64,000 nucleotides of DNA from Bacteroidota bacterium (GTDB lineage: Bacteria; Bacteroidota; Bacteroidia; Sphingobacteriales; Sphingobacteriaceae): contig JABDBM010000002.1 of the NCBI GenBank assembly GCA_013288685.1, forward strand, positions 1 through 64,000, written 5' to 3'. Made by a program: the position numbers and the translations under genes. A model generated the notes under the pieces. The model ran no database searches, had not been told where the DNA came from, and saw only the letters and a program-made list of their open reading frames with translations. Position 1 is the first letter of the stretch. Each line of letters opens with the position of its first letter. Positions 34,362-52,408 of the stretch are shown here, piece by piece.

Positions 34362-35051
34362 ATGGAAAATATGGACTTAATGCTAACTGCCACTTGCCCT
34401 GCGGTAAACGCCGCACTACCAGACGAAGAAAGGGAACTGGCAATTTTATTTGTAGATATACGCAATTTTACCGGGCTTATGGAATCACAGCCGGGTCAAA
34501 CGGTGATACAAATTGTTCGTCGTTTATTTACAGCTTTCAACCAAATTGTGAAGAATTTCGGAGGTAAGGTTGTGGAAATTGCCGGGGATAGTTTGTACGC
34601 GGTATTTGGCTTGCAAACCGAATTAAAAGCTTCTGTAAACAATGCTTACCAGGCCGCAAAAATTATGTTTCAAACCGTTAGCCTGTTCAACGAGGCTTAT
34701 GCAGATGCTTATTATGGCGGTCCGCTGGAAATTGGTGTTGGCTTACATGCCGGGAAGGTTTTTGTGGGTGAATTTGGTTTAGATAATGCACCACAATTGC
34801 AGGTAATGGGTCTTCCGGTTAATATTGCTTCCAGGCTGCAGGCCAAAACCAGGGAGCTGGATAATGATTTGGTGATGTCGGAGGAGGTATACCGTTTGTT
34901 GGAACCGAGAGATGTATTTGAGCAACAAACAGTTAATCTACAGGGTATCTCCCATGGCCAGCGAATTCGGTTAGCCGGTAAGCCTTACAGCAATTTTGCT
35001 TTGACAGAATCGTCGCCCGAGATGAATTATCTAATTGCCATCGCAGGTTAA
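34362..35051 (+). CDS. Class III nucleotide cyclase domain protein
   Basis: 229 residues, a single cytoplasmic class III cyclase domain. The metal-binding Asp residues are in FVDIRNFTG and AGDSLYAVFG; the transition-state Asn and Arg are in PVNIASRLQ. At the substrate-selecting position adenylate cyclases carry Lys (K-T-I-G-D) but this protein has Glu (E-I-A-G-D), the residue guanylate cyclases use for guanine. The second selecting position (Asp in adenylate, Cys in guanylate enzymes) appears to be Gln. Product is therefore uncertain: cGMP-like specificity or none. No sensor or membrane domain is attached. Confidence 0.85.
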   Translation: MENMDLMLTATCPAVNAALPDEERELAILFVDIRNFTGLMESQPGQTVIQIVRRLFTAFNQIVKNFGGKVVEIAGDSLYAVFGLQTELKASVNNAYQAAKIMFQTVSLFNEAYADAYYGGPLEIGVGLHAGKVFVGEFGLDNAPQLQVMGLPVNIASRLQAKTRELDNDLVMSEEVYRLLEPRDVFEQQTVNLQGISHGQRIRLAGKPYSNFALTESSPEMNYLIAIAG

Positions 35052-39433: not shown

Positions 39434-39934
39434 TTACAATTCTGTAAACGGCACCAAACTGTCCTCTACAATCAACCCGCTTTTGCAAAAGCCAAGTAAA
39501 TTCGGCCCCTCCAACCGTTCATATAACTCTTCCAAATCTTTATCACTCCCGGTTTTACAGATAACGAAAGTATCAGCACCCATACTGCTTAACGCTGCTC
39601 CATATTTGTCAATCAACAGCCATAAATCGTTGCTTAAGGCCGGAGCAGCTAATCGGTAGAAACCTGTTTTCCTGAGGTTGTCCGCATAAGTTTTCACTGC
39701 ATAAACCTCGATGATTTTGTTTAGCCGTTGGGTGAATGGCGCCAGGTCAGTAGCCGGAATAACGGCTTCTATTGTCAGCATCACCAGGTCACTAATATCA
39801 GTACGAGCAACGTTCAGGCTCCTTACGTCATAGCTCCGCTTGTTAAAATGGATGAGGATCTGCCCAACAAGGCCTTTTTTGTCCTCGGCATAGATCGAAA
39901 AGATGGTTGGGTTGGTGGCGATGGCTTTTTTCAT
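39434..39934 (-). CDS. ACT-domain protein, acetolactate synthase small subunit-like (orphan)
   Basis: 166 residues. The N-terminal half is an ACT domain of the IlvN/IlvH type: FSIYAEDKKGLVGQILIHF, then KRSYDVRSLNVARTD. The second half has a weaker repeat of similar fold. In acetolactate synthase such domains bind valine and inhibit the large subunit. No ilvB or other branched-chain pathway gene is present in the window, so this is an orphan regulator-like subunit. A terminator and an Ile/Val/Leu-rich leader peptide lie directly upstream, which supports a role tied to branched-chain amino acids. A GcvR-like ACT regulator is the alternative. Confidence 0.65.
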   Translation of the reverse strand: MKKAIATNPTIFSIYAEDKKGLVGQILIHFNKRSYDVRSLNVARTDISDLVMLTIEAVIPATDLAPFTQRLNKIIEVYAVKTYADNLRKTGFYRLAAPALSNDLWLLIDKYGAALSSMGADTFVICKTGSDKDLEELYERLEGPNLLGFCKSGLIVEDSLVPFTEL

Positions 39935-39952: not shown

Positions 39953-39982
39953 AAAAAAGCCTCCCGGGTTGTCCGGGAGGCT
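39953..39982 (-). terminator. Attenuator terminator before the ACT-domain gene
   Basis: On the minus strand AGCCTCCCGG (39982-39973) pairs with CCGGGAGGCT (39967-39958), ten perfect base pairs with a five-base loop, then six T (39958-39953). It lies 19 bases before the ATG of the ACT gene and after the leader peptide, so it would block expression unless prevented. Its 5' arm contains CTCCCG, which can pair with CGGGAG at the end of the leader ORF (40027-40022) to form an antiterminator. Confidence 0.8.
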
Positions 39983-40013
39983 GATGATATATTTTGCTTT
40001 AGTTAAGACAATA

Positions 40014-40103
40014 TCAGGACACTCCCGTAATAATTGGAATAATCAGGACAACGACAATAATAATTGCGTTAAGGATGTTGCTATATAAACTGTTCGTTGC
40101 CAT
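40014..40103 (-). CDS. Ile/Val/Leu-rich leader peptide (attenuation)
   Basis: A 29-codon frame from the ATG at 40101-40103 to the TGA at 40014-40016. Residues 14-25 read AIIIVVVLIIPII with only one Pro and no other polar residue; 15 of residues 10-28 are Ile, Val or Leu. The composition and length match ilv leader peptides of enterobacteria, where ribosome stalling on these codons under amino-acid shortage prevents termination. The terminator at 39953-39982 and the possible antiterminator pairing complete the arrangement. A TATTTTG box (40117-40111) just upstream suggests a very short 5' leader. A tiny membrane peptide is the other reading. Confidence 0.7.
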   Translation of the reverse strand: MATNSLYSNILNAIIIVVVLIIPIITGVS

Positions 40104-40169
40104 CGGGCTGCAAAATAGTAAAATCAAATCAACTGTTAAAATCTTTTTCAGTGCTTATCGTCTAATTGC

Positions 40170-51046: not shown

Positions 51047-52408
51047 TTATAATTTTCCTGATGTGTATAGTAACTGATAGTAAATAAATTGTGCGGTTGT
51101 TTGTGCCTGTACCAGGTTAAACCGTGCTTCCTGGTACAAATTGTCGGCATCCAGCAAGTCCGTAAGCAGGGCCAGCTGGTTAAAATATTTGGCGCTTACT
51201 ATTTTGTAATTCACCCTTGCCTGTTCAATTGATTTTTCGCTAACGGTTATCCGGTTTAGCGCTTCACGGTATTTTATCAGTAACCCGGTGGCTGTTTGCC
51301 GTGTATTGTCGCTGATGTTTTTCTGCACATATTGCAATTCCTGCAGCCGGATTTTGCCGGCGGCCATTTTGTTTTTGTTGAGATAGCGCGACGAAATATT
51401 GTATTGAATTTTCAAACCCACAAACCCAATAGAATAAGCCTGGTCAACCGGGGGGTAAAAGATGGTGTTGGGATAGCTTAGGCCATAGGCGGTAAACAAC
51501 GCTACGGTTGGCGAGTAATTACTTTTAATACCACTTATTCGAGCATTTTGAATTTGGATGTTATAGGCTATCCTGTTTACATCGAACGCATTTTTATCGG
51601 CACTGGCAACGATGGGTAACAGTGTATCAACTACCGGGCGGGGCATTGCTGCCGAATCGGATGGGTAAATCTTCAACGTATCGGGCAGGTTGAGCAATAC
51701 GTTGAGTTTTTGATTGCTAATGGTGATATCATTTTCAGTTTGCTCCAGGTTTAACTTTACGGCAGATAAATTCAATTCGGCGCGAAGCACATCGCTGCGG
51801 GTGACTTTTTGATTGTTGTATAAAGCATTAATGTTTTTCAGCCTGGTTTGTGCCCTGATTACCTGTTCTTCAATAAAACGTTTTTGATCGTTAAGCCTCA
51901 CCATCCCAAGGTATTGCGCTGCAACCTGCAAACTTATATTGGCCGATTGTTCCTGTGTGTTTATACCGGAAAGTCCTTTTTTATTGACCTGCTCAGCTTC
52001 AAACGCCTTTTGCCTACCCCCCGAATAAAGGTTAAATGTTGCCGACAAGCTGGCATCCGCGCCGTTGGAGCTTGGCCTTTTGGGCACTGATTTAGCATCG
52101 CCTAAAAAATCGTTGTATAATGTTAAACTGGTAAAACGCTGGTAGTCGCCGCCAGCCAATATGGTGGGCAGTTCCGCAATTTTGGCATCTTTTAAATCGG
52201 CGTTGCTGGCGTTTTCTTCACTTTGGGCTGCTTTTATTAAGCTGTTATTCGCTTTGGCCAGGGTAATGGCGCCTTGCAGTGAAAGATGACTAACAGTATC
52301 TGTTTTAATGCTTTGCTCCGCATATAATGCAGCCGGAAACATTAAAAAAAAGCACAAAAAGATCCTGGTAAGCCTGCAAAGCGCAAGCTTTAAAGTTATA
52401 AATTTCAT
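51047..52408 (-). CDS. TolC family outer-membrane efflux protein
   Basis: 453 residues with signal peptide ending ALYAEQ. Two repeats of the outer membrane efflux family are seen: SLQGAITLAKANNSLIKAA near the N-terminus, and a second coiled region (about 270-440). It forms the trimeric exit channel for the HlyD/MFS pair and is the first gene of that operon, 76 bases after the pirin-like gene. Confidence 0.93.
   Translation of the reverse strand: MKFITLKLALCRLTRIFLCFFLMFPAALYAEQSIKTDTVSHLSLQGAITLAKANNSLIKAAQSEENASNADLKDAKIAELPTILAGGDYQRFTSLTLYNDFLGDAKSVPKRPSSNGADASLSATFNLYSGGRQKAFEAEQVNKKGLSGINTQEQSANISLQVAAQYLGMVRLNDQKRFIEEQVIRAQTRLKNINALYNNQKVTRSDVLRAELNLSAVKLNLEQTENDITISNQKLNVLLNLPDTLKIYPSDSAAMPRPVVDTLLPIVASADKNAFDVNRIAYNIQIQNARISGIKSNYSPTVALFTAYGLSYPNTIFYPPVDQAYSIGFVGLKIQYNISSRYLNKNKMAAGKIRLQELQYVQKNISDNTRQTATGLLIKYREALNRITVSEKSIEQARVNYKIVSAKYFNQLALLTDLLDADNLYQEARFNLVQAQTTAQFIYYQLLYTSGKL

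Follow-up and report, generated by a model that had tools for sequence, protein, structure and literature searches.

A putative isoleucine/valine attenuator before a lone gene resembling the AHAS small subunit in the Sphingobacteriaceae

We describe here a putative transcription attenuator that lies before a lone ACT-domain gene in a genome of the Sphingobacteriaceae (Bacteroidota), within a window of 64,000 nucleotides (assembly GCA_013288685.1, contig JABDBM010000002.1). Our reading, which we hold at a probability of roughly three in four, is that this is a ribosome-mediated attenuator that senses isoleucine and valine and that would induce, on their shortage, an alternative regulator resembling the small subunit of acetohydroxyacid synthase (AHAS), the first enzyme of branched-chain amino acid synthesis. 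The attenuator part of this reading, which is its main content, appears very probable from the comparison of sequences. An Ile/Val-rich leader and a terminator precede 44 of the 59 homologues whose upstream DNA was read, in three genera of one family, and the leader ends and terminator arms have changed together.

Results

Elements of the attenuator in the window

A direct reading of the sequence bore out the 29-codon leader, the 10-bp terminator with six T and the CGGGAG/CTCCCG pairing of a preliminary description of this DNA, each in its place (Table 1). On the minus strand the two arms of the terminator read AGCCTCCCGG (39982-39973) and CCGGGAGGCT (39967-39958), the six T occupy 39958-39953, and 18 nt separate this run from the ATG of the ACT gene at 39934, where the preliminary description put it 19 bases further on.

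Table 1. Elements of the putative attenuator and its gene, in window coordinates.
Feature	Position	Strand	Description	Evidence
Promoter -7-like box	40110..40117	minus	TATTTTGC (TAnnTTGY); start predicted near 40105, ~2 nt before the leader ATG	box match; start site predicted
Leader peptide frame	40103-40014	minus	29 codons, MATNSLYSNILNAIIIVVVLIIPIITGVS; ATG 40103-40101, stop TGA 40016-40014	sequence read; 44 homologous leaders
Putative regulatory Ile/Val codon run	40029..40064	minus	IIIVVVLIIPII	sequence read; position-specific enrichment over 44 leaders
Antiterminator 5' segment	40027-40022	minus	CGGGAG, within the last leader codons	sequence; partial-transcript fold; co-change with terminator arm
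Intrinsic terminator	39982-39953	minus	10-bp stem, loop ACAAC, six T	sequence; folds; stem covariation on 33 sequences
Antiterminator 3' segment	39974..39979	minus	CTCCCG, common to the terminator 5' arm	sequence; partial-transcript fold
ACT gene	39934-39434	minus	166 aa, ACT domain and C-terminal domain; divergent AHAS small-subunit homologue	profile, model and fold matches

The 166-nt leader folds better than all of 200 dinucleotide shuffles (z -3.24). The RNA folding that the preliminary description had called for gave the two expected structures: a transcript cut before the 3' arm adopts the CGGGAG/CUCCCG antiterminator (z -1.81, with 8 of 200 shuffles as good), and the terminator forms once the 3' arm is included. 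A 5-bp hairpin, CGGGA/UCCUG, appears at the leader end in the fold of this single sequence, and bears on the question of a protector (1:2) hairpin of the E. coli type.

A scan of both strands of the window detected seven terminator-like sites, among which only the one at 39982-39953 comes after a small frame with a run of I/V/L codons; no second leader of this kind with a terminator was found within the 64 kb. One other terminator-linked frame was flagged, starting at 52308, with 4 Phe in 9 codons.

The window belongs to a genome that is 71% complete, in 223 contigs. Upstream of the leader, on the same strand, lies a GAPDH-type gap gene. On the downstream side the ACT gene faces a convergent gene whose product has a CHU_C type IX secretion domain; this domain, like the TAnnTTG-type promoter box, points to the Bacteroidota. 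The ACT gene stands alone in the window, and may be co-transcribed with other genes at other loci. A cyclase-like gene of the window (34362-35051, plus strand) resembles, by eye, the gene that adjoins the ACT gene on its downstream side in two other genomes (G310 and G311, loci L107 and L108).

Leader and terminator are conserved in three genera

We built a profile from four orthologues and ran it against 149 genomes of the genus; it yielded 48 matches at E 5e-22 or better, set apart from canonical ilvN near 1e-14. In 33 of these 48 homologues a terminator lies at most 90 nt from the ATG, preceded by an I/V/L-rich leader that ends 21-36 nt before the terminator. These 33 copies are spread over 30 genomes, three of which hold two copies. 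Another 14 of the 48 have no terminator in that interval, and no leader either. The ACT gene of G131 (L129) is a decayed copy with an in-frame TAA, at which neither leader nor terminator was found.

A profile of 33 sequences also matched genes of other genera when run on 399 genomes of the family, and by eye the leader and terminator are present in all 11 loci fetched from two of them. Conservation of the leader among relatives, named beforehand as the observation on which the proposal could fall, thus held; the remaining 15 of the 59 homologues comprise the 14 with neither element and the one broken gene. One additional match (4.9e-25, G008:C224) lies outside the 59 homologues that were read upstream.

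We were not able to find a match in the plasmid collection by tblastn at 1e-5. The named genome collection gave a single locus (L031, Marinilabiliaceae), 30% identical, which the tree places with canonical IlvN. In a sample of 395 genomes of the phylum, 11 matches lay outside the family (5e-25 to 9e-23), and the 10 of them that were placed in the tree all group with canonical IlvN. A quick tree, from which the broken gene of G131 was left out, separates the orphan family from canonical IlvN with support 100. Presence and absence of the leader amount to two changes on this tree, on which the grouping of the no-leader members has support 28 and the program issued a long-branch warning.

Leader end and terminator arm change together

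The preliminary description had proposed that conservation of the pairing be checked in relatives, and the pairing proved to be conserved. Complementarity between the leader end and the terminator 5' arm exceeds that of shuffles (p<=0.05) in 29 of the 33 genus loci, and in all 11 loci of the two other genera (p 0.007 or less); in the 11 added leaders, the terminator arm was taken from a fixed window in both the register and the complementarity analyses. The four genus loci with weak complementarity are G101 (p 0.058), G211 (0.084), G208b (0.226) and G292 (0.694). The pairing segments are of different kinds: CGGGAG/CTCCCG, GGAGGG/CCCTCC and GGGAGG/CCTCCC. In the 33 loci the leader-side segment falls within the final codons of the leader or on its stop codon.

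Since the register of the alignment (A5) shifts by one column between sequence classes, we used an alignment-free swap test instead of counting antiterminator columns. In 26 representatives, cognate duplexes had a mean energy of -15.6 kcal/mol versus -12.0 kcal/mol for swapped ones, and none of 20,000 permutations was as good, a result that is somewhat inflated by kinship among the sequences. Leader ends and terminator arms have, by this test, co-changed.

The antiterminator is the minimum-energy fold in 25 of the 26 partial transcripts, the exception being G292, and the terminator is the fold of 23 of the 26 full transcripts, with G298, G250a and G252 preferring the antiterminator. By the swap and fold tests the two structures are mutually exclusive, as an attenuator requires; the swap test and most fold tests cover the 33 genus loci or the 26 representatives, out of the 44. 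In the terminator stem of 33 sequences, 90.8% of cells are paired and 5 of the 10 pairs have two-sided changes. This covariation is above that of shuffles by four measures out of five; by the fifth, the count of pair types, it is not. In the stretch between leader stop and terminator we found no conserved fold (mean z -0.52), and no conserved 1:2 protector hairpin was established.

Ile and Val codons stand at a set distance from the antiterminator

With its usual footprint, a terminating ribosome would cover the antiterminator segment, and a stalled one would leave this segment free. The position of the segment agrees with this arrangement in the 33 loci, and the position of the codon run in 44. 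Counting codons back from the first antiterminator base, the fraction of I/V/L is 0.75-0.93 at each of codons 3-11 in the 44 leaders; it falls to 0.59 at codon 12 and to 0.07-0.43 over codons 13-27, and at codons -1 to 2 it is 0.02-0.34. Just beyond the first antiterminator base I/V/L codons are frequent again, with a fraction of 0.59 at codon -3 and, among 14 leaders, 0.64 at codon -5. The I/V/L content of the ACT-family proteins themselves is 0.29.

Pooled over the 44 leaders, Ile and Val codons crowd 3-12 codons ahead of the antiterminator, and Leu much less so. Codons 3-15 are 32% Ile, 26% Val and 14% Leu; per position, codons 3-11 have 0.27-0.64 Ile, 0.14-0.48 Val and 0.05-0.18 Leu, with Leu climbing to 0.34 at codon 14 and 0.25 at codon 15. 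The leader had been described as an Ile/Val/Leu leader; from these counts the regulatory signal looks like Ile and Val, with Leu contributing little to the core.

A short, hydrophobic frame followed by a terminator is also what one would see if the leader were a small membrane peptide (for example, type I toxin-like) with a terminator of its own, the downstream gene being incidental. The hydrophobic run is, however, made mainly of Ile and Val and lies at a fixed spacing from the antiterminator, the end of the frame co-changes with the terminator arm, and in 44 loci, whose neighbours vary, the block stands before members of the same gene family. We regard a membrane peptide as very improbable: judged from the sequences, a sensor based on ribosome stalling needs just such a codon register, which is hard to account for by a membrane peptide.

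A promoter-like box precedes most leaders

In 31 of the 44 loci a TAnnTTGY or TGnnTTGY box lies in the last 45 nt ahead of the leader ATG, and the same search in control windows 100-145 nt upstream gave 0 of 44. Two leaders (G212 and G234b) were begun at their first ATG, and a later ATG just after a promoter-like box fits better; the count of 31 was made with the first ATG in both. With the box-to-start spacing taken from Flavobacterium psychrophilum (PMC9723704), the predicted 5' end falls 1-10 nt before the leader start in 29 of the 31 box-bearing leaders. The available text of that study holds that TAnnTTGY (its motif SM5) is most likely read by an alternative sigma factor, which we do not claim for the present leaders.

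These boxes also bear on the simplest explanation of the hairpin, by which it would be no more than the terminator of gap, the gene upstream, with the small frame present by chance. The leader does begin 66 nt after the gap stop codon on the same strand, as such an explanation would have it, but the upstream gene varies between loci, a promoter-like box stands just before most leaders, and all 44 leaders precede homologous genes. We consider a mere gap terminator hardly credible.

The canonical ilv operon rarely carries such a leader

We searched upstream of ilvD for a comparable switch in 93 stretches of the genus (90 rows scanned, plus G014, G101 and G131, which were scanned and inspected by eye). 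A plausible close attenuator was seen in 1 of the 93, in G121, which places the switch with the lone gene and not with the pathway operon. None was seen in the 26 genomes that have a leader-bearing orphan. The idea that genomes without the orphan would have the attenuator on the ilv operon was rejected, as it was found upstream of ilvD in 1 of 67 genomes that lack a leader-bearing orphan.

The G121 case (L113) is a plausible I/L/V leader with a terminator, lying between about 225 and 20 nt upstream of the ilvD start codon. Flags raised in G126, G248, G082 and G261 were judged to be due to chance, lying about 290-370 nt from the gene, and further rows have terminators without such a leader at 300-424 nt before ilvD. 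No terminator was found in the 212 nt available upstream of ilvD in G301, and the upstream DNA of ilvD in G259 spans 208 nt. By eye, a motif resembling ATACCGAATACCG...ACTTTGGTATA recurs in four of the five loci L109-L113, at about 190-420 nt upstream of ilvD, and the fifth has a variant; the motif looks like a candidate binding site for a regulator.

The ACT protein has the fold of an AHAS small subunit

The product of the ACT gene matches NCBIfam TIGR00119 (acolac_sm) at 41.8 bits, below the curated cut-off of 56.9, and two Pfam families likewise below their cut-offs (PF10369, ALS_ss_C, 18.9 of 23.2; PF01842, 24 of 27). The profile of 33 sequences, compared with the PDB, has AHAS small subunits on top (6u9h at 3.2e-20, 2pc6 at 5.8e-11). 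The predicted structure has a pLDDT of 91, and its best Foldseek match is 2f1f (E 8.7e-10, TM 0.74); the protein is, by this model, of the two-domain AHAS small-subunit fold of 2f1f.

The valine-binding residues of the small subunit are Asn11 and Asn29 in E. coli numbering (Kaplun 2006, cited in the available text of PMC11893703). The window protein has Asp at both positions. Asn29 is kept in 5 of 44 leader-bearing proteins and in none of 14 no-leader ones, versus 35 of 35 canonical proteins. Asn11 is kept in 3 of the 44; its presence in 35 of 35 canonical proteins is by construction, as these were picked by a motif that requires it, and the Asn29 count is unaffected by this choice. Asp at the Asn11 position does not by itself imply loss of feedback, because Asp also occupies this position in IlvN of C. 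glutamicum, whose AHAS became resistant to valine when the residue was changed (PMC11893703, in the part available).

The gene had been called an orphan IlvN-like gene with no ilvB beside it. The genes of the window agree that no ilvB adjoins it and that it is lone; it is not a displaced ilvN. Canonical ilvN is present in the same genome, at the end of another contig (C147) and followed by ilvC-like and leu-like genes (by eye), so that the ACT gene is a second, divergent small-subunit-like gene. Canonical ilvN is over the cut-off in 10 of 10 genomes searched, and canonical ilvB was found in 9 of the 10; in the exception (G000) ilvN sits at the very end of its contig.

Genomic contexts and the possible target

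The protein might instead sense amino acids on behalf of another enzyme or process, such as the steps from threonine to isoleucine, with the attenuator working as described and AHAS not being the target. This is a real possibility, although we hold the odds to be somewhat against it. The unreached acolac_sm cut-off favours it, as do the contexts of the no-leader homologues, which lie elsewhere: four of the 14 (L101, L102, L140 and L141; clusters 5 and 6, by eye) come after homoserine kinase-like and threonine synthase-like genes, and others adjoin a PLP synthase-like gene, so that the ACT family may serve other enzymes. G223 and G235 favour it too, since there the ACT gene is followed by an ileS-type gene and stands between this and the attenuator. 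Against a non-AHAS target stand the full two-domain fold, with 2f1f as best match, and the AHAS small subunits at the top of the profile matches. The neighbours of the 33 leader-bearing loci, moreover, recur only in groups of two to four, with no conserved downstream partner, and so point to no other enzyme. The next downstream frame of at least 100 aa is on the opposite strand in 14 of the 33, as in the window, and on the same strand, in varied families, in 19. AHAS as the target of the protein has, in our estimate, just under an even chance.

Two exact patterns of the pairing segments, built from known members and run on the 149 genomes, hit 16 places, 15 of which are known loci before the ACT gene; reversed control patterns hit none. 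The patterns match 15 of the 33 genus loci already known, and may therefore overlook variants at other sites. At the sixteenth place, in G299 (L295 1340-1850, minus strand), leader and terminator are kept and the ACT gene is absent; the next gene on the same strand, of which the locus spans 460 aa, encodes an isoleucine--tRNA ligase, with ileS as its best-matching family (2.4e-131). Since the ACT gene lies between attenuator and ileS-type gene in G223 and G235, G299 has most likely lost its ACT gene; possibly the block is newly used on ileS. The ileS-type gene of G299 has a promoter-like stretch of its own.

Discussion

We propose that the signal sensed by this element is the level of charged tRNA-Ile and tRNA-Val. 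When Ile and Val are plentiful, the ribosome would reach the stop codon and mask the 3' end of the leader, so that the terminator forms and transcription stops. When either is short, the ribosome would stall in the Ile/Val run and leave the last codons exposed; these would pair with the terminator 5' arm, as the pairing and codon register seen in the comparison suggest, and RNA polymerase would proceed into the ACT gene. The gene would in this way be induced on Ile/Val shortage. Its product would most likely be an alternative regulatory subunit that acts on the shared IlvB, with valine feedback altered or lost.

A more specific scheme, which is tentative and in our view rather unlikely, is that a valine-blind subunit swaps with canonical IlvN on IlvB under Ile/Val shortage and lifts feedback inhibition. 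Flux would then be regulated through subunit swapping and not through more enzyme, and attenuation would have moved off the biosynthetic operon to a trans-acting spare subunit. In this scheme the leader-plus-gene block behaves as a self-contained cassette, present at many unrelated sites.

The 44 loci, with their co-changing base pairs, offer comparative evidence for a leader-peptide attenuator in a phylum where few are documented, and point to a new target for attenuation, a lone AHAS-subunit-like gene instead of a biosynthetic operon. They suggest a form of control in which an enzyme already present would respond differently to feedback once amino acids run short. With a start site predicted only a few bases ahead of the leader ATG, the element may also serve as a system in which to study how translation begins after a very short 5' stretch, and how transcription and translation are coupled in these bacteria.

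How the protein and RNA relate to known families can be stated briefly. The ACT protein shares with the AHAS small subunits IlvH/IlvN (PDB 2f1f, 2pc6 and 2fgc; TIGR00119, PF10369) the two-domain arrangement of ACT and C-terminal domains and a significant profile similarity. It differs from them in scoring below curated cut-offs, in having mostly lost the equivalents of Asn11 and Asn29, in having no ilvB neighbour and in coexisting with a canonical ilvN. No RNA family of Rfam exceeds its gathering threshold on the leader stretch; Phe_leader (RF01859; 28.2 bits, E 0.045, gathering score 55) and His_leader (RF00514; 20.1 bits, E 2.4, gathering score 49) overlap it weakly, and their codon class differs from the Ile/Val leader described here. 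In the open literature, to which our search was mostly confined, we found no title or abstract describing this leader element or an orphan second AHAS small subunit like it.

Naville and Gautheret stated in 2010 (PMC2965389) that leader peptide systems had until then not been shown outside Proteobacteria and Actinobacteria, to which they added Firmicutes. That such leaders are little described in this phylum, as had been supposed, is right, but the field is not blank: leader-peptide attenuation has already been inferred, if in general terms, upstream of amino-acid operons of F. psychrophilum (PMC9723704), and is mentioned in similarly general terms for B. thetaiotaomicron (PMC7366714, in the portions available). 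The F. psychrophilum case shares with ours the phylum, the logic and promoter boxes of the TAnnTTG type. It differs in concerning operons and not a lone ACT gene, and 'ilv' is absent from the main text of that paper. Leader-based control of branched-chain amino acid genes is further described, in the accessible parts of both papers, for the ilvBNC attenuator of C. glutamicum (PMC11857589) and for a leucine-rich attenuator of Staphylococcus aureus (PMC5794164); unlike the element described here, both act on biosynthetic genes as a set, and in other phyla.

There is a close likeness with the enterobacterial ilv attenuators, with which the present element shares a leader of branched-chain codons, an arm common to antiterminator and terminator, and an intrinsic terminator before the gene. 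The E. coli leaders of ilvGMEDA and ilvBN are attenuators of whole biosynthetic operons, or of an enzyme with its subunit. Here the target is a lone small-subunit homologue, a conserved protector hairpin was not established, and the predicted 5' untranslated stretch is about 1-10 nt in most leaders.
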